DNA from: a virus | Strand: one strand, 5' to 3' | DNA: 36,031 nucleotides | Virus record (IMG/VR): IMGVR_UViG_3300036985_001476 | Location: 1-36,031 of that record | Program-made: the position numbers and the translations under genes | In this document: positions 3,210 to 25,144 of the stretch, piece after piece | Layout of the letters: each line of letters begins with the position of its first letter | Numbering within the stretch: the stretch's first letter is position 1 | Notes under the pieces: generated by a model | Told to the model about the DNA's origin: nothing | Seen by the model: only the letters and a program-made list of their open reading frames with translations | The model's database searches: none

Positions 3210-3788
3210 ATGGGTTATAAAGTAGACGATTCCATCAAATGCGTTATCTGCGGTAGCGCTCCAATAATTGCTAGGCTTTTGTGTAGACCTTGTTACACTA
3301 TCGAAAGGCGTAAAAATAATTTGGCTAATCATGCTTTTATAACTCCTGAGAAAGCGTTTCATTTAAAATATGTAATTTCTGAAAACGGTTGCTGGGATTG
3401 GATAGCCTCTAAAAGAAAAGATGGCTATGGCATATTCAATCTTGCAAACGATAAAAAAGTAAGGGCGCATAGGTATTCTTACGAACTACACAACGGTAAA
3501 ATTAACGATGCGTTGAAAGTAGTCATGCACTCTTGCGATAATCCAAAATGTGTAAACCCCGCACATCTATCTTTAGGAACTAGAGGCGATAATCTTTTAG
3601 ACGCGTATGCTAAACATAGACGAACTACAGGCGATGAATCACATTTATCTAAAATTTCAGAATTACAAGCTTTAGCTATTCTATCAGATACACGCCCACA
3701 ATCACTAATAGCTAAAGAATATGGCTTACACCAAAGCCAAATAAGCCGTATAAAATCAGGAAAACGTAGAGCTAGATCAATTACATAG
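3210..3788 (+). CDS. HNH endonuclease with zinc ribbon and C-terminal HTH
   Basis: The protein has 192 residues. A zinc ribbon near the N-terminus uses C11-x2-C14 and C25-x2-C28. The HNH_3-type nuclease core runs about 60-125, with H87 (RAHRYSYELHNG), H107, N111 and H119 (MHSCDNPKCVNPAHL). The final part (about 164-184, SLIAKEYGLHQSQISRIKSG) looks like a helix-turn-helix for DNA recognition. AAAGGG precedes the ATG. The gene is opposite in strand to all its neighbours and carries its own promoter, which is typical of a free-standing homing-type nuclease. It could also act in packaging, but terL is far away. Confidence 0.9.
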   Translation: MGYKVDDSIKCVICGSAPIIARLLCRPCYTIERRKNNLANHAFITPEKAFHLKYVISENGCWDWIASKRKDGYGIFNLANDKKVRAHRYSYELHNGKINDALKVVMHSCDNPKCVNPAHLSLGTRGDNLLDAYAKHRRTTGDESHLSKISELQALAILSDTRPQSLIAKEYGLHQSQISRIKSGKRRARSIT

Positions 3789-3795
3789 GGCATCG

Positions 3796-5544
3796 TTATT
3801 CCTTATTGTTGCGTAATTGATTAGCTAAAGCTAAAGTTGATGCTCTAGCAGCAGTAGGCGCTATTTTATCCAAAGGCAAAGGTGGTTTTTGAACTAAATT
3901 CCTTTGTATTATTGGCGTTGAAGCTAAAGCTCTTGCAGCAGGTTTAGCTAATGCTGAAGCCCATAAAAGAGGTTGCCCTGATGCCAAAGAAAGTAATCCT
4001 CCAACGCCTACATCTCTTAAAGAAATAGTAGGTATACTACCTATTGTACTAGCCTCTTGAGAAGCTTTAGGAAACATTGATGCAAAAGATGCAATATCTT
4101 TAAGTTCTCCAGATATAGGACGTTTTCGTTTTAATAAATCTGCAAATTTTTTAGCTGACACATTTCCAGTATCACCAGCAAGTGTTTTTTCAATATCATA
4201 TGTCCGCGCAATCATTTCTCGCGCTTGTTTAAATTTATCTAATAATTCAGGCGCATTTATATCTTGCAAATGAGTTTCTACAGCGTCTTCTAAGGCCCGT
4301 GCAGCAGCTTTAGAAGCTTTTGCTACATCTGTGTTATTTGTTCTAAACGCGTCATCAGCCGCAGTTCTTAACTGTTTAATCTTTGCTATTGCAGCAGATG
4401 AATCAAAAGCTGGCGATTTTAAAGATTCAATTAAATCAATAACTGGACTAGGAGGTGCGCCAGGAAAACCTTGTGCAGATTTTAAAAATGGTTCTGCAAT
4501 TTTATCAAGTTTAGCTACATATTCCGCTTTGGGTTTTATAATCCCTACATCTCCTATAGCTGAATAAGCTTTACCAGCTTCATTTCGAACCGCGCTAAGT
4601 GTATCAAAATCAAGTTTAGTGCCTTCAGGAAGATTTATCGCCTTAGCCGCCAACGCATTAAACACAGGTTGATTTTGTTTACTGATAATTTGGGATATTG
4701 GAGTTTTTCCTCCTAAACCTTCAATTATTTCATTTCCAATAGATTGTTTAGCTGTAGCAGGAGGGATAACTAAACCTAAAGATTTAGCTTTTTTTATAGC
4801 CTCAATATCTACAGGTGTTTGTTCTGCGCCTCTTACAAATCTATGTAACCCTTTTACTAACTTACCAACAGTAGGCATAACCGCACCTATTTCAGCGGCA
4901 TTTTTAACATCTTCTGGATGAAGCATTGCTTCACTAGCTGCACCAGTTATTGCACCTGCTCCTGTACGAGCAGCGAAATTTGCTATCGCATTTGAACCTA
5001 TATCACCCGTCATACCGCCTGTACGAAGTAAATTTACTACTTTAGGTGCTGCGCCAAGCACTTTAGCCGTTGAGCCTAATATACCAGCGACAGGTGCAGT
5101 AATAGCAGTTTCACCTGCTAAAGTACCTACGTTATAAGCAGTAGATTCAGGATTAAACCCTGCATTAACCAGTTTATTTTTGGCGTATTGCGATACATTT
5201 TCAGTAGTTTCAGGCGCTATATGTTCGCCTATCATTTGCAATGGCCGAACAGCACCTTTAGCAATTCCGGCATACAAATTACTGACATTACCTAAAACTT
5301 CTTTACCATAAGAAACTATTGGGTTTTCTTCAACCGTATCTTTAGCTATATGCAATACAGGCTTATTAAATTCTTTAGCTTCTCTTCCATGCACTTGTTC
5401 AACCGTATCTTTAGCTATATGCAATACAGGCATATTAAATTCTTTAACTGCTCTTTCATGCACTTGTTCAGGAGTTATCCCTTCAGGCACATTTTCATAA
5501 ATATGCTGAGAATTATCGCCTAGAGTAACTGTTACATTTGCCAT
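3796..5544 (-). CDS. Putative internal virion / DNA ejection protein
   Basis: The protein has 582 residues from the ATG at 5544; an in-frame TTG three codons earlier is less likely. The N-terminal segment (ANVTVTLGDNSQHIYENVPEGITPEQVHERAVKEF) is a small module that I recall at the start of several podovirus virion proteins. It contains a duplicated 23-residue segment. Residues about 80-220 are Gly/Ala-rich and amphipathic, suited to membrane insertion. The remainder is helical. Size, composition and its place beside two other Ala/Gln-rich proteins suggest an ejected inner-core protein. No enzymatic motif is visible. Confidence 0.6.
   Translation of the reverse strand: MANVTVTLGDNSQHIYENVPEGITPEQVHERAVKEFNMPVLHIAKDTVEQVHGREAKEFNKPVLHIAKDTVEENPIVSYGKEVLGNVSNLYAGIAKGAVRPLQMIGEHIAPETTENVSQYAKNKLVNAGFNPESTAYNVGTLAGETAITAPVAGILGSTAKVLGAAPKVVNLLRTGGMTGDIGSNAIANFAARTGAGAITGAASEAMLHPEDVKNAAEIGAVMPTVGKLVKGLHRFVRGAEQTPVDIEAIKKAKSLGLVIPPATAKQSIGNEIIEGLGGKTPISQIISKQNQPVFNALAAKAINLPEGTKLDFDTLSAVRNEAGKAYSAIGDVGIIKPKAEYVAKLDKIAEPFLKSAQGFPGAPPSPVIDLIESLKSPAFDSSAAIAKIKQLRTAADDAFRTNNTDVAKASKAAARALEDAVETHLQDINAPELLDKFKQAREMIARTYDIEKTLAGDTGNVSAKKFADLLKRKRPISGELKDIASFASMFPKASQEASTIGSIPTISLRDVGVGGLLSLASGQPLLWASALAKPAARALASTPIIQRNLVQKPPLPLDKIAPTAARASTLALANQLRNNKE
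5330..5467. repeat. 69-bp in-frame tandem duplication in the ejection protein gene
   Basis: Units 5330-5398 and 5399-5467 are nearly identical, with only a few substitutions. They encode EQVHERAVKEFNMPVLHIAK (first copy) and EQVHGREAKEFNKPVLHIAK (second), each followed by DTV. The repeat length of exactly 23 codons keeps the frame open, so the duplication is tolerated or selected. Confidence 0.93.
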
Positions 5545-21056: not shown

Positions 21057-22358
21057 TTATATTCGTTTTCTAAATGGTTTTGTGCTAGATTCCCATAATT
21101 CGTTCAATGTTTGCTCCTGCCAATACTTAGGTTTCTTTATTTTTGGCTCTGGACGCTGTTCACGCCACGCTAAAGCTACATATCTAAATCCGTCCGCATA
21201 ATGAGAAGTCCAATCATGCTTTGGACGGTCATTGAATATCTTTTTATCCAGATTATACTCACGTTGATACTGTGTGAGGGCTTCCATGCCTTCTTTACAC
21301 TTAGGATCGAACCAACAATCCGCTAAAGTCAGACGTGCTGCTTGAATTCCATCCATCAGACTAACACTTGGCACGATTCTTGGTCGCCAACCTAGCGATC
21401 TGAACTGTTCTTCAATAGACCTGCCTGTTTGTAAACTTTTTGCCTTAGCATCGTGGGGTAAATATAGCCATTCTCCGTAATCGTAGCCTCTTCCTTTTAA
21501 TATCTCGTCATAATGACTGATAGGCATACCTGAATTTGAATAGCAATCGATTACCCGAAGCTCTCTCCCCACTACCTGATACCACCATATTGCAGTATCG
21601 TCACTCCACCCTAAGTCGAGAGCTGCATAAGTCTTTAACGAACGGTCATAACAAGGCTTCACGCGCCCAGATTCAGCCAATTCATACATTTCCTTACCGT
21701 ATATCGCCCCCGGTATTGCTGCATCAAAGTTACACTCCATTTCCTGTAGCCATGCATCCTCACTCAATTCGTTCTTAAGCTCGGCTAACTCCTCTGCGTC
21801 TAGCAATCCCGACTCCGAAGCCTTCAATATCAAGGTAAAGCAATTAGGATCAGTCTTACCCTGCTCATAACGCTCATAAAAAGCGTTCTTTCCTTTAGGC
21901 GTACCGATGATGATCGCCCAACCTTTTCGATCAGCCAATGCCGGACGGATAACATACGCCCACACGGAGGATTTCCAGTCACCATATTCATCCGCGATGA
22001 TGCCATCAAAATATAAACCTCGTAATCTGTCAGGATTATCCGCACCGAACAACTGCAATCGAGAACCATTAGGAAAGTCCAACCGCAATTCCGATTCATT
22101 TACCTTTATATTAGGTATCGGTTTGGTAAATGTCTTACAGTAATCCCAGATCACCTGTTTGGCTTGAGAGTAGTAAGGACAAATGTAGCCATAACGTCCA
22201 TCACCCGACACATCCTGACAGGCAGCGCGTATCAATTCATTGATGCACGACACAGACTTCCCTGCGCGTCTATGCGCCACCACAACCGCCCAGCGTTCCT
22301 TTCGATTGTGTAGCGGTTTGAATACTTCTCTAGGTTTATAAGGAAGCGTAACCTTCAT
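21057..22358 (-). CDS. terL: Terminase large subunit
   Basis: This is the packaging ATPase-nuclease, 433 residues. The start is the ATG overlapping the terS stop (ATGA); the in-frame TTG upstream is unlikely. Walker A is A28HRRAGKS35, Walker B is GIIADE with catalytic D123-E124, and the coupling motif is IGTPKGK near 152. The nuclease domain begins with ALDLGWSDD, with D248 as first metal ligand, and continues to the C-terminus with a conserved YADGFRYVALAW near 395. All motifs needed for activity are visible. Confidence 0.96.
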   Translation of the reverse strand: MKVTLPYKPREVFKPLHNRKERWAVVVAHRRAGKSVSCINELIRAACQDVSGDGRYGYICPYYSQAKQVIWDYCKTFTKPIPNIKVNESELRLDFPNGSRLQLFGADNPDRLRGLYFDGIIADEYGDWKSSVWAYVIRPALADRKGWAIIIGTPKGKNAFYERYEQGKTDPNCFTLILKASESGLLDAEELAELKNELSEDAWLQEMECNFDAAIPGAIYGKEMYELAESGRVKPCYDRSLKTYAALDLGWSDDTAIWWYQVVGRELRVIDCYSNSGMPISHYDEILKGRGYDYGEWLYLPHDAKAKSLQTGRSIEEQFRSLGWRPRIVPSVSLMDGIQAARLTLADCWFDPKCKEGMEALTQYQREYNLDKKIFNDRPKHDWTSHYADGFRYVALAWREQRPEPKIKKPKYWQEQTLNELWESSTKPFRKRI

Positions 22359-22732
22359 TCTTCCCAACCTATCACTAAATTCATAGCTGATCCATCAGCG
22401 TTAGTCAAACCAACCGCTACTCTTGTTGACTCCTTAGCAGTAGCCCAACCATGAGAGTGTTGCAAGATAGCCAGAGCTGCTTTGGAATCGCCATTCCGTG
22501 CAGCATCTCTCAACTGAGTTGACGCTTCCACTTCTGCATCAGCAGCGCCCTTCAAGGCGGCCAGTTCAACAGTAGGGTCTAGCTGACAGAGTTGGCGATA
22601 TTCGGAGGGCAACATGCCAGAGGCAAGCGCCAGCTTATCACCTTTTAAGCCAAGCTTGGCAGCTTCATATATTTGGGATAACCGCGCCTCTGTAGCTTGG
22701 AGTTCGCGTGGGGAATAGGGGAATGAAATCAT
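22355..22732 (-). CDS. terS: Terminase small subunit
   Basis: The protein has 125 residues and binds packaging sites in DNA. It begins with an N-terminal HTH-like helical region (LSQIYEAAKLGLKGDKLALA then GMLPSEYRQLCQLDP), typical of small terminases. A helical oligomerisation region follows (EVEASTQLRDAARNGDSKAA, then LAILQHSHGWATAKE). The gene is directly upstream of and coupled with terL. GGTGA precedes the ATG. As first gene of the late block it faces the iteron region. Confidence 0.88.
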   Translation of the reverse strand: MISFPYSPRELQATEARLSQIYEAAKLGLKGDKLALASGMLPSEYRQLCQLDPTVELAALKGAADAEVEASTQLRDAARNGDSKAALAILQHSHGWATAKESTRVAVGLTNADGSAMNLVIGWEE

Positions 22733-23010: not shown

Positions 23011-23070
23011 AAGGGCAAGGGCAAGGGCAAGGGCAAGGGCAAGGGCAAGGGCAAGGGCAAGGGCAAGGGC
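23011..23070 (+). repeat. Ten perfect AAGGGC hexamers (G-quadruplex-prone)
   Basis: Ten uninterrupted copies of AAGGGC (GGGCAA register) run from 23011 to 23070, and AAGG continues to 23074. The plus strand thus holds ten GGG tracts with 3-base loops, fulfilling the canonical G3N3 quadruplex rule more than twice over. This is a striking base-composition break in an AT-rich genome. An open frame through it would encode a Lys-Gly run, but lacks a ribosome site. Confidence 0.97.
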
Positions 23071-23090
23071 AAGGCCATTACTTGGAACGT

Positions 23091-23460
23091 GTTAGCTATG
23101 TTAGCTATGTTAGCTATCAATAATAATTGAGTGCTTACAATCGCCTTAATGTCGGCCTTTATATGTTAGCAATGTTAGCTATTAAAAAACATTAGCTAAC
23201 ATTACTAACAATTAAGCAGTTTTATAAAATGTTAGCAATGTTAGCAATGTAATCATGCAAAAAAAATTGGTGGCGGTCGACATTCCGTATATTTATTTCC
23301 CACAATATTATTATGGTTATTATTATTATTATTATTTCTTTATTAATATAAAATAATAACTAACATTATAAACAAATAGCTCAAAGCCCCGCTAGGTCTA
23401 GGCTGGAACGTATGCAATCTTGTTGAATTTTATAGCTAACATTCAACTAACATTACTAAC
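23091..23460. repeat. Array of 9-bp GTTAGYWAT iterons in opposed clusters
   Basis: Forward copies lie at 23091, 23100, 23109 (GTTAGCTAT x3), 23165 and 23174, and 23231 and 23240 (GTTAGCAAT x2). Reverse copies lie at 23192-23209 (two), 23356-23364, 23432-23440, an imperfect one with 2 extra bases at 23441-23451, and 23452-23460. Units inside a cluster are directly abutted with 9-bp period. Consensus is GTTAG(C/T)(A/T)AT, read by eye. This is the format of initiator-protein iterons, though repeated operators would look alike. Confidence 0.88.
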
Positions 23461-23484: not shown

Positions 23485-23512
23485 TTTACAAAAGATAAAA
23501 AAGGTGTATATT
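23485..23512 (+). promoter_or_regulatory. Rightward sigma-70-type promoter
   Basis: TTTACA (23485-23490) and TATATT (23507-23512) are 16 bases apart, 25 bases after the last iteron and about 54 bases before the first gene of the plus-strand module. The iteron cluster at 23432-23460 is placed where an activator or repressor of this promoter would bind. Confidence 0.62.
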
Positions 23513-23522
23513 TCAAATCAGG

Positions 23523-23540
23523 CCAAGCAATTCCGCTTGG
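23523..23540 (+). promoter_or_regulatory. Leader stem-loop
   Basis: CCAAGC (23523-23528) and GCTTGG (23535-23540) pair around loop AATTCC, in the 5' leader of the 23566 gene. No T-run follows, so it is more likely an mRNA stabiliser or translation control element than a terminator. Confidence 0.5.
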
Positions 23541-23565
23541 TAGAGAACAAAAAGAGAACACTAAA

Positions 23566-23811
23566 ATGGAAAACTTACTAATTAATCAAGATTCACTATT
23601 AACAACTATTGCTAAATTACGCGGTTTTAAAGTATCAGGGTTATATGATAATGGTGTAACTTTGGAACGTGCTAGATACAAAAAAGATATAGCAAGCGAA
23701 CAAGCTAGATTATCAGAGTTAAAACTAGATTTAAGATTGTTGCTAGATTCTAAAATTAGTTTTAAAGCTAGTATTTACACATCTAATATAACTATAGAGC
23801 TAATAAAATGA
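23566..23811 (+). CDS. Uncharacterised 81-residue protein
   Basis: First gene of the plus-strand module downstream of the iterons. The protein is mixed, with a helical charged middle (RARYKKDIASEQARLSELKL) that may form a short coil, and a strand-like end. I recognise no family. The ribosome site is weak (GAGA about 9 bases before ATG). Its stop overlaps the next start (ATGA), so the following membrane peptide is coupled to it. Regulation by the promoter and leader hairpin just upstream is likely. Confidence 0.65.
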   Translation: MENLLINQDSLLTTIAKLRGFKVSGLYDNGVTLERARYKKDIASEQARLSELKLDLRLLLDSKISFKASIYTSNITIELIK

Positions 23812-23885
23812 ATCAAATAATACTGTTTGGAATTGCGATATTATTTATAGCATTAGCAGAAAATGTTTTAAATTATTTAATGTAA
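23808..23885 (+). CDS. 25-residue single-helix membrane peptide
   Basis: The gene encodes MNQIILFGIAILFIALAENV then LNYLM. It is one hydrophobic helix with a negative charge near its end. The ATG overlaps the stop of the upstream gene (ATGA), and a terminator-like hairpin follows the stop by 7 bases. The tight packing makes translation likely although the peptide is very small. Function unknown. Confidence 0.5.
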   Translation: MNQIILFGIAILFIALAENVLNYLM

Positions 23886-23892
23886 ATCAATC

Positions 23893-23916
23893 AAGGCCGT
23901 CATTAGGCGGCCTTTT
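23893..23916 (+). terminator. Terminator/attenuator inside the small-gene module
   Basis: AAGGCCG (23893-23899) pairs with CGGCCTT (23908-23914) around an 8-base loop, followed by TT and an AT-rich stretch. The run of T is short (four), so partial termination between 23885 and 23934 is likely. Confidence 0.65.
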
Positions 23917-23933
23917 AATAAAGGTAAACTAAA

Positions 23934-24149
23934 ATGACTAAAGTAGAATTGATAAAACACTTAAACACTTTAAGAAAAAGCAATAAAAATGCTTGGGTAT
24001 ATTGGAACGGTATTTATAACGGCCATACAGTAAGTTATAAAGCTTATAAAACATGGGTTCAATACTTAACAATTGACGGGTTAAAACATTCTAGTTTATG
24101 CGATTGTAAACCTACTCAATTTATAGACTTTTTGAATGAGGCCCTATAA
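23934..24149 (+). CDS. Uncharacterised 71-residue protein
   Basis: The protein starts MTKVELIKHLNTLRKSNKNA and is rich in Lys, Tyr and Trp (WVYWNGIYNGHTVSYKAYKT). AAGG lies 10 bases before the ATG. Its TAA overlaps the start of the cysteine-rich gene (TAATG), which makes the two co-expressed. No family recognised; basic and aromatic content would suit nucleic acid binding, but this is only a composition argument. Confidence 0.65.
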   Translation: MTKVELIKHLNTLRKSNKNAWVYWNGIYNGHTVSYKAYKTWVQYLTIDGLKHSSLCDCKPTQFIDFLNEAL

Positions 24150-24835
24150 TGTCAAAATATCACTTAACTAAAGTATCGAGCAATGCTAAAACTGGCCCGA
24201 TCGCAGTGTCTACCAGTTCCAAGTCTACTTGCCCCGATGATTGCCCAATAAAAGAAAAAGGCTGTTATGCGGGCAATGGCCCGTTAAATTTACACTGGCA
24301 AAAGGTAACAAATGGGGAACGCGGCGTTTCTTTTGATGATTTCCTTTTGCAAGTGCAAGCATTGCCAATTAATTCAGAATATCGTCATAATCAGGCCGGC
24401 GACTTACCAGGTGAAAATGGCCAGATTGACGCGCCAAAATTGGCACGTTTAGCAGCTACAACAAAAAAGCGTAAATTACGCGCGTTCACTTATACGCATT
24501 ACAATGTGTTAACTAATATCAATAATAGATTGGCTATACAAGCAGCCAATAACGTCGGTTTTACGATTAATCTAAGCGCTAATCATATAAACGAAGTGGA
24601 TAATCTACTTGCACTCAATATCGCGCCTGTAGCTGTCATTATGCCAATAAACGCGCCTAAAGTATCTTATACTGCAGCGGGTAACAAAGTGGTTATTTGC
24701 CCAGCACAAACAAATGACGAAACAAGATGTATTGATTGCATGTTGTGCGCTAAAAATGATCGATCATTTAGCATCGGTTTTATTGCTCATGGTACAAGCG
24801 CCAAAAAAGCAGCGTTTTCAACTAATAATATTTAA
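24149..24835 (+). CDS. Cysteine-cluster phage protein (DUF7227-like)
   Basis: The protein has 228 residues and resembles a family found in proteobacterial phages and plasmids, annotated I believe as DUF7227 (not verified). Two cysteine clusters stand at the ends: C28-x3-C32-x6-C39 (CPDDCPIKEKGCYA) and C184 with C194-x2-C197-x2-C200 (CIDCMLC). Conserved-looking motifs between are YRHNQAGDLPG (about 78-88) and FTYTHYN (113-119), and GFIAHG follows at 210-215. The Cys patterns suggest a metal or Fe-S site; the central part may be a small alpha/beta barrel-like fold. The reaction is unknown. More conserved than the other module genes. Confidence 0.75.
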   Translation: MSKYHLTKVSSNAKTGPIAVSTSSKSTCPDDCPIKEKGCYAGNGPLNLHWQKVTNGERGVSFDDFLLQVQALPINSEYRHNQAGDLPGENGQIDAPKLARLAATTKKRKLRAFTYTHYNVLTNINNRLAIQAANNVGFTINLSANHINEVDNLLALNIAPVAVIMPINAPKVSYTAAGNKVVICPAQTNDETRCIDCMLCAKNDRSFSIGFIAHGTSAKKAAFSTNNI

Positions 24836-24851
24836 CTTAGGATAATATAAA

Positions 24852-25058
24852 ATGAAAAATTTAAACTATGTCGCTGCAGCTTTAATTTTAATAATCTTTA
24901 TTGGCGCGTTATGTATGGTAGATAGCACACCAAGTTACAAGATTCATAAAACAAGAAGTGGTGATTTTATAATCATCGACAAAGAAGGCGCTAACAATTC
25001 CAGAATCTATGAATTAGTAGAATTGCCAACAAATAGGGTAAGCGAGGCCGTCAAATGA
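24852..25058 (+). CDS. Small membrane-anchored protein
   Basis: The protein has 68 residues. Residues 5-23 (NYVAAALILIIFIGALCMV) form one membrane helix. The rest is a small soluble domain with a beta pattern (SYKIHKTRSGDFIIIDKEGA). AGGA lies 10 bases before the ATG. The stop overlaps the start of another tiny membrane peptide. It follows the cysteine-cluster gene by 16 bases and may anchor a complex at the inner membrane; that is speculation. Confidence 0.65.
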   Translation: MKNLNYVAAALILIIFIGALCMVDSTPSYKIHKTRSGDFIIIDKEGANNSRIYELVELPTNRVSEAVK

Positions 25059-25117
25059 TAGTCGCGCTTGTAACAGTAGTTCTGATAGAGTTGATAGCCT
25101 TAACTCTATCAGAATAA
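25055..25117 (+). CDS. 20-residue hydrophobic peptide
   Basis: The gene encodes MIVALVTVVLIELIALTLSE, a single membrane-spanning helix. Its ATG overlaps the upstream stop (ATGA). The second half of the gene is also an arm-loop-arm inverted repeat (25080-25114), so the sequence may be constrained by RNA structure rather than by the peptide. Coupling and position favour translation, but size makes this tentative. Confidence 0.4.
   Translation: MIVALVTVVLIELIALTLSE
25080..25114 (+). terminator. 13-bp perfect inverted repeat at the module end
   Basis: TTCTGATAGAGTT (25080-25092) pairs perfectly with AACTCTATCAGAA (25102-25114) around a 9-base loop. It overlaps the last small gene and is followed at once by a second hairpin with T-run. 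It may be a terminator companion, an mRNA end stabiliser, or an operator. Confidence 0.6.
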
Positions 25118-25144
25118 AAAAAGGGCCTTAACCGGCCCTTTTTT
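25117..25144. terminator. Strong bidirectional rho-independent terminator
   Basis: An A-run, GGGCC, a 6-base loop, GGCCC and a T-run make an 11-bp stem flanked by A and T tracts on either side. It works in both directions, at the meeting point of the plus-strand module and the minus-strand replication operon. Confidence 0.9.

Follow-up and report, generated by a model that had tools for sequence, protein, structure and literature searches.

What does a phage gain from a compact module of six genes with no known structural or replication role? The module (23566-25117, plus strand) lies between TerS and a VirE-like primase in the window, by which we mean the whole 36,031-bp stretch analyzed here, an IMG/VR virus record (IMGVR_UViG_3300036985_001476). 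The window represents a freshwater-type phage. Its TerL is closest (about 40%-44%) to those of Rhodoferax phage P26218, environmental phages, and Pelagibacter phages such as HTVC010P, and the nearest relative of its primase (52%) is that of podovirus ctNMl277 from Manatee Spring. An earlier note on this DNA had found no structural or replication role for the gene set, and our analysis supports that assessment. We place about even confidence in the explanation that the module is an accessory ("cargo") host-takeover operon of a podovirus-like phage family, whose soluble cargo is exchangeable and set among membrane micropeptides. For reference, we compared genes B-F with those of L001, a close relative that holds TerS and ends before the primase. 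The features of the locus are as follows:

22355-22732, minus strand: TerS, the upstream neighbor of the module
23098-23453, both orientations: array of the repeat ATGTTAGY, 10 copies, partly tandem with period 9
23485-23512, plus strand: candidate sigma-70-type promoter, TTTACA-16-TATATT, 10 of 12 matches, a top-scoring site
23522-23541 (about), plus strand: leader hairpin, z -2.3, absent from L001
23566-23811, plus strand: gene A, 81 aa, soluble orphan
23808-23885, plus strand: gene B, 25 aa, one membrane helix
23893-23914, plus strand: internal hairpin ("attenuator"), z -5.1, absent from L001
23934-24149, plus strand: gene C, 71 aa, soluble orphan
24149-24835, plus strand: gene D, 228 aa, cysteine protein, DUF7227 (PF23872)
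24852-25058, plus strand: gene E, 68 aa, membrane helix at the N terminus, conserved tail Y-I-HKTRSGDF
25055-25117, plus strand: gene F, 20 aa, one membrane helix, the last gene
25079-25144, plus strand: double hairpin, two stacked hairpins, -37.2 kcal/mol, z -8.3
25117-25144, plus strand: second terminal hairpin, U-runs on both strands, identical in L001
25234-27540, minus strand: VirE-like primase, converging on the module

The six genes are a real operon, and its described layout was largely confirmed. It runs opposite to both neighbors. The gene junctions reported in the earlier note are present, with ATGA overlaps at 23808 (A/B) and 25055 (E/F) and TAATG at 24147 (C/D), and we recovered the same three small membrane-helix products (B, E, and F) and two orphan soluble proteins (A and C). 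Gene A had no significant family in Pfam, PHROGs, NCBIfam, or PADLOC, and the latter two gave no assignment to A, C, D, or E. A 49-aa membrane protein occupies the place of gene A in L001, where the gene C product is 62% identical; 16 of the 25 residues of gene B are invariant across four lineages. Genes B-F are under protein-level purifying selection. Their dN/dS values relative to L001 were 0.08 (B), 0.40 (C), 0.08 (D), 0.17 (E), and 0.08 (F), with one-sided p-values from 0.004 (gene C) to 7e-29; over 20-25 codons such values are noisy for single genes, and the pooled micropeptide test given below is stronger. Since B and F show fewer nonsynonymous than synonymous changes, these micropeptides are very probably translated. 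Gene F overlaps the first terminal hairpin, several stem pairs of which are disrupted in L001 by mostly synonymous changes. The F peptide is preserved (90% identical), so what is conserved is the coding sequence and not the hairpin pairing alone.

Signals proposed to control the operon fared unevenly. The candidate promoter is a top-scoring site and both of its hexamers are preserved in L001, but promoter-like sites in this region were no more numerous than in shuffles. The leader hairpin and attenuator both fold as had been described. However, both are missing from L001 and are therefore not conserved parts of the operon, and we rejected them as conserved regulators. An Rfam search of the window returned no family. 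The double terminator at the end of the module was recovered as the two stacked hairpins listed above, and the second of these is a bidirectional intrinsic-terminator-type site that can serve both converging operons.

To place the operon among its relatives, we used 97 loci, comprising 95 with both flanks from TerS, primase, and DUF7227 scans, together with the window and L001. We note that each scan contributed no more than 80 loci, and that the sample leans towards close relatives. Across these loci, the TerS-primase interval measures 1.9-4.7 kb and holds a plus-strand operon whose contents vary. DUF7227 occurs in 3 of the 85 loci that were found by their flanks. The commonest large cargo is a beta-clamp-like protein, exemplified by a 184-aa product in L188 (1686-2240, slot coordinates in module orientation) and found in 31 other slots; these 32 proteins match the central domain of DNA polymerase III beta just below the cut-off, and the 184-aa protein is a possible clamp or clamp mimic. 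GP88 is encoded in at least five slots (L210, L213, L254, L269, and L284), another GP88-related cysteine protein in three, DUF932 in L273 (beside DUF7227), and DUF7249 in L260. The equivalent slot of ctNMl277 contains a gene annotated as a cytosine-5 DNA methyltransferase. A close comparison is L149, whose TerS and primase are 100% and 98% identical, respectively, to those of the window; there, a clamp-like gene replaces DUF7227 and genes E and F are retained. These differing contents and the swap in L149 identify the slot as a cargo locus, with DUF7227 as one optional cargo. Phage accessory-gene (host-takeover) regions similarly hold small, mostly unknown genes that differ among close relatives, whereas the present locus adds a fixed site by a repeat-rich putative origin and conserved membrane micropeptides.

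The repeats on the TerS side recur beyond this phage. ATGTTAGY has 14 matches in the whole window, compared with 3.9 expected, and 10 of them fall inside 23098-23453. Tandem repeats with a period of 9 were found on the TerS side of the slot in 59 of the 97 loci, compared with none in simple shuffles. We interpret the array as a putative origin or regulatory region, and the period-9 repeats would fit an iteron origin adjoining the operon. Simple-sequence arrays also flank the operon and differ between close relatives, with (GGCAAG)n at 23012-23075 of the window and other units at about 4670-4830 and 7090-7330 of L001.

The largest gene of the module belongs to a widespread family with no described function. 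Gene D is a full-length DUF7227 (residues 3-222, E 5e-89, scoring 298 bits where the cut-off is 27) and also matches PHROG 2554 (E 2e-45). The family was present in 185 phage records, of which 166 are Pseudomonas phages and the others include cyanophages, and on bacterial contigs, where a tyrosine-recombinase-like (integrase-like) gene was seen by eye close to several copies. In P-SSP7, DUF7227 is the first annotated gene, upstream of RNA polymerase. This position and the integrase-like neighbors in bacterial islands show the gene behaving as an accessory gene elsewhere too. The position in P-SSP7, together with the promoter-like site and the direction opposite to the virion genes, suggests that the operon is perhaps expressed early. 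A search for a recurrent partner of at least 40 aa outside the phage family found none that was general. In the literature collection searched, we found no paper on DUF7227 or DUF5131, and work on TcmP, on the early genes of P-SSP7 and Pakpunavirus, and on phage small proteins likewise yielded nothing on the module genes.

Conserved residues and predicted structure both point to a specific type of protein. In 76 aligned sequences, three N-terminal cysteines (C28, C32, and C39) and four C-terminal cysteines (C184, C194, C197, and C200) are invariant, which bears out the description of a two-cluster cysteine protein. Also invariant are R79, H80, Q82-A-G-D85 (an RH-QAGD motif in all 76), Y115, H117, N141, and S143. 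Structure prediction with AlphaFold2, which had been suggested for this product, gave a confident alpha/beta barrel (pLDDT 94.8, pTM 0.92). The top 15 VIA matches to this model were all radical-SAM enzymes (Z 7.0-5.8), led by PFL-activating enzyme and viperin (both Z 7.0) and including EpeE, QueE, lysine aminomutase, and SuiB; these lie below Z 8, from which level upward matches become distinct from commonly shared arrangements. The top Foldseek match was HydE (E 0.009). The three N-terminal cysteines come after strand 19-23, and invariant G84-D85 closes strand 77-83, the second core strand. DUF7227 appears to resemble the radical SAM superfamily (PFL-activating enzyme, viperin, QueE, HydE) in its predicted barrel, its cysteines after a core strand, and the following GD, but it has CX3CX6-13C and GD where that superfamily has CX3CX2C and GGE. 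The radical-SAM profile PF04055 did not match gene D up to E 1, and PDB searches with the protein and with the 76-sequence profile gave nothing significant. Because of the fold ranking, the place of the three cysteines, and the GD that closes the core strand following them, we consider DUF7227 most likely to be an iron-sulfur protein with a radical-SAM-type barrel.

Profile-profile comparison by hhalign, another step proposed for this product, connected DUF7227 to other cysteine proteins and gave no direct link to PF04055 (E 0.037 across 12 columns). DUF7227 matched GP88 (PF17338; E 6e-6) and GP88 matched DUF5131 (Gp37-Gp68, PF07505; E 1.5e-5), with controls against TerS and primase at E 0.09-0.23. 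The direct match between DUF7227 and DUF5131 was E 0.17, so the two are connected only via GP88. One GP88 protein matched the DUF7227 model alone, at 27.5 bits (cut-off 27). GP88 and DUF5131 have in common with DUF7227 a CYA cysteine motif followed by G-D or S-D, but the aligned DUF5131 sequences are without the C-terminal cysteine cluster. Structure prediction for GP88 reached pLDDT 48.6, from an alignment that was too uniform. Through the links to GP88 and DUF5131, assigning DUF7227 as radical-SAM-like would point to a chemistry for all three families together.

Membrane peptides are the most constant part of the slot, and they and the operon framework persist in more loci than any one soluble cargo gene does. 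A hydrophobic peptide of 19-21 aa, preceded by a ribosome-binding-type sequence, was found near the end of the operon in 52-53 of 97 slots, depending on settings, compared with 0 on the reverse strand and 0.1 in shuffles. The scan required an ATG start, a minimum hydropathy, and a match to a permissive ribosome-binding pattern, and the counts depend on these settings; the F homologue of L001, for example, was missed. Most terminal peptides were 19 aa (31) or 20 aa (20) long, with two of 21 aa. Their sequence is nearly pure hydrophobic, and the penultimate residue is mostly acidic (35 of 51 have D or E there). When slots were grouped at 70% DNA identity, 33 of 52 groups had a terminal peptide. 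Across 20 non-overlapping nearest pairs, we counted 132 of 317 synonymous (pS 0.42) and 52 of 781 nonsynonymous (pN 0.07) differences. The peptides share place, length, and selection, and may or may not have a single ancestor, their sequences being so short and hydrophobic. A second class of membrane peptide, 23-45 aa long and further upstream, was found in 57 slots, compared with 4 on the reverse strand. Genes so small can therefore be recognized by comparative selection tests, and the 19-21-aa peptides form a defined set for testing in host takeover or exclusion.

How the parts relate to each other bears on whether the cysteine protein and the membrane peptides work together as a single membrane-localized redox/metal or exclusion system, as the earlier note had proposed. 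The genes appear co-transcribed and translationally coupled, and in 9 of 12 loci of the phage family a membrane micropeptide is encoded no more than 1 kb from DUF7227. By scan, 10 of 15 DUF7227 slots have a terminal peptide. However, 43 of the 53 slots with a terminal peptide are without DUF7227, and L149 keeps E and F without D. Outside the phage family, membrane peptides (17-45 aa, same strand, within 1 kb) do occur near DUF7227, in 17 of 63 loci compared with 1 on the opposite strand. The co-occurrence anticipated in the earlier note is thus real, but it is loose, with the other 46 loci having no such peptide. Since the parts separate so freely and DUF7227 is rare among flank-found loci, we regard a single machine as highly improbable. 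The terminal peptides could instead act on their own as small hydrophobic toxins that depolarize or arrest the host. Bacterial Ibs toxins are hydrophobic peptides of comparable size, and the length, composition, and mostly acidic penultimate residue of the phage peptides would be in keeping with such a role. The phage peptides differ in standing last in an ordinary multi-gene operon, often overlapping the preceding gene, and we consider the toxin reading unlikely.

Two further readings concern the soluble proteins. The cysteine clusters of DUF7227 could be structural zinc sites in a non-enzymatic binding protein built on a TIM-like fold. This would agree with the non-canonical N-terminal spacing and the missing PF04055 match, and the VIA ranking continues from Z 5.7 downward with other TIM barrels, tryptophan synthase alpha among them. 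Against it are the radical-SAM enzymes that fill the top VIA ranks, the positions of the invariant cysteines and GD relative to the core strands, and the similar CYA and G-D/G-E motifs kept by GP88 and the third cysteine family in the slot; we find the zinc reading rather doubtful. The main rival, compatible with the slot, is counter-defense. DUF7227 and its slot-mates (GP88 and the third cysteine family) would then modify a nucleotide or base, shielding phage DNA or disabling a host defense, and slot variability would reflect an arms race. Close relatives do differ in cargo, the ctNMl277 slot holds the cytosine-5 DNA methyltransferase gene, and the gene after DUF7227 in P-SSP7 is annotated as a DNA methyltransferase. 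In bacteria, DUF7227 has type I restriction genes close by in two loci (L095 and L104), and integrase-like genes are also near. But PADLOC gave no match to A, C, D, or E, DUF7227 has no recurrent partner, and the restriction genes are near only those two loci. We treat counter-defense as a genuine minority possibility.

As a class of function, we still find host takeover the most probable, and it is a role that we infer. Under the takeover explanation, the operon would occupy a fixed slot from the repeat-rich region upstream of TerS to the convergent primase and would be transcribed from its own promoter after infection. At the mouth of the barrel, the three N-terminal cysteines of DUF7227 may hold a 4Fe-4S cluster that binds SAM, and the four C-terminal cysteines may hold an auxiliary cluster or zinc. 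The invariant GD that follows the second core strand would stand in for the GGE motif. DUF7227 would alter a host nucleotide, RNA, or protein in favor of the phage, and soluble cargo in general would act on host or phage macromolecules. The micropeptides would work apart from it at the inner membrane of the host, through inhibition of a host process or superinfection exclusion. The absent PF04055 match, the unusual cysteine spacing, and a best VIA score below 8 weigh against this explanation, as do the 44 of 97 slots in which the terminal peptide was undetected and may be absent or divergent. A more specific version, which strikes us as speculative, is a takeover cassette of a new kind, in which soluble cargo swaps, micropeptide classes stay, and the terminal peptide has an important membrane target of its own. 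If so, the cargo would comprise radical-SAM-like proteins (three related families), a beta-clamp-like protein, and a methyltransferase.

Other features were observed in these genomes. In L002 (10484-11221, minus strand), about 246 in-frame codons inside DNA polymerase A begin with Cys and are intein-like (CVASDTLVMTDKGEVPISSL...), an insert absent from the polymerase of the window. Three relatives, L008 (9184-9687, minus strand), L005, and L022, have an ORF between their primase and polymerase genes that by eye resembles an HNH homing endonuclease. In the window, a 192-aa gene at 3210-3788 (plus strand) is HNH endonuclease-like by eye and runs in the direction opposite to the surrounding virion genes.
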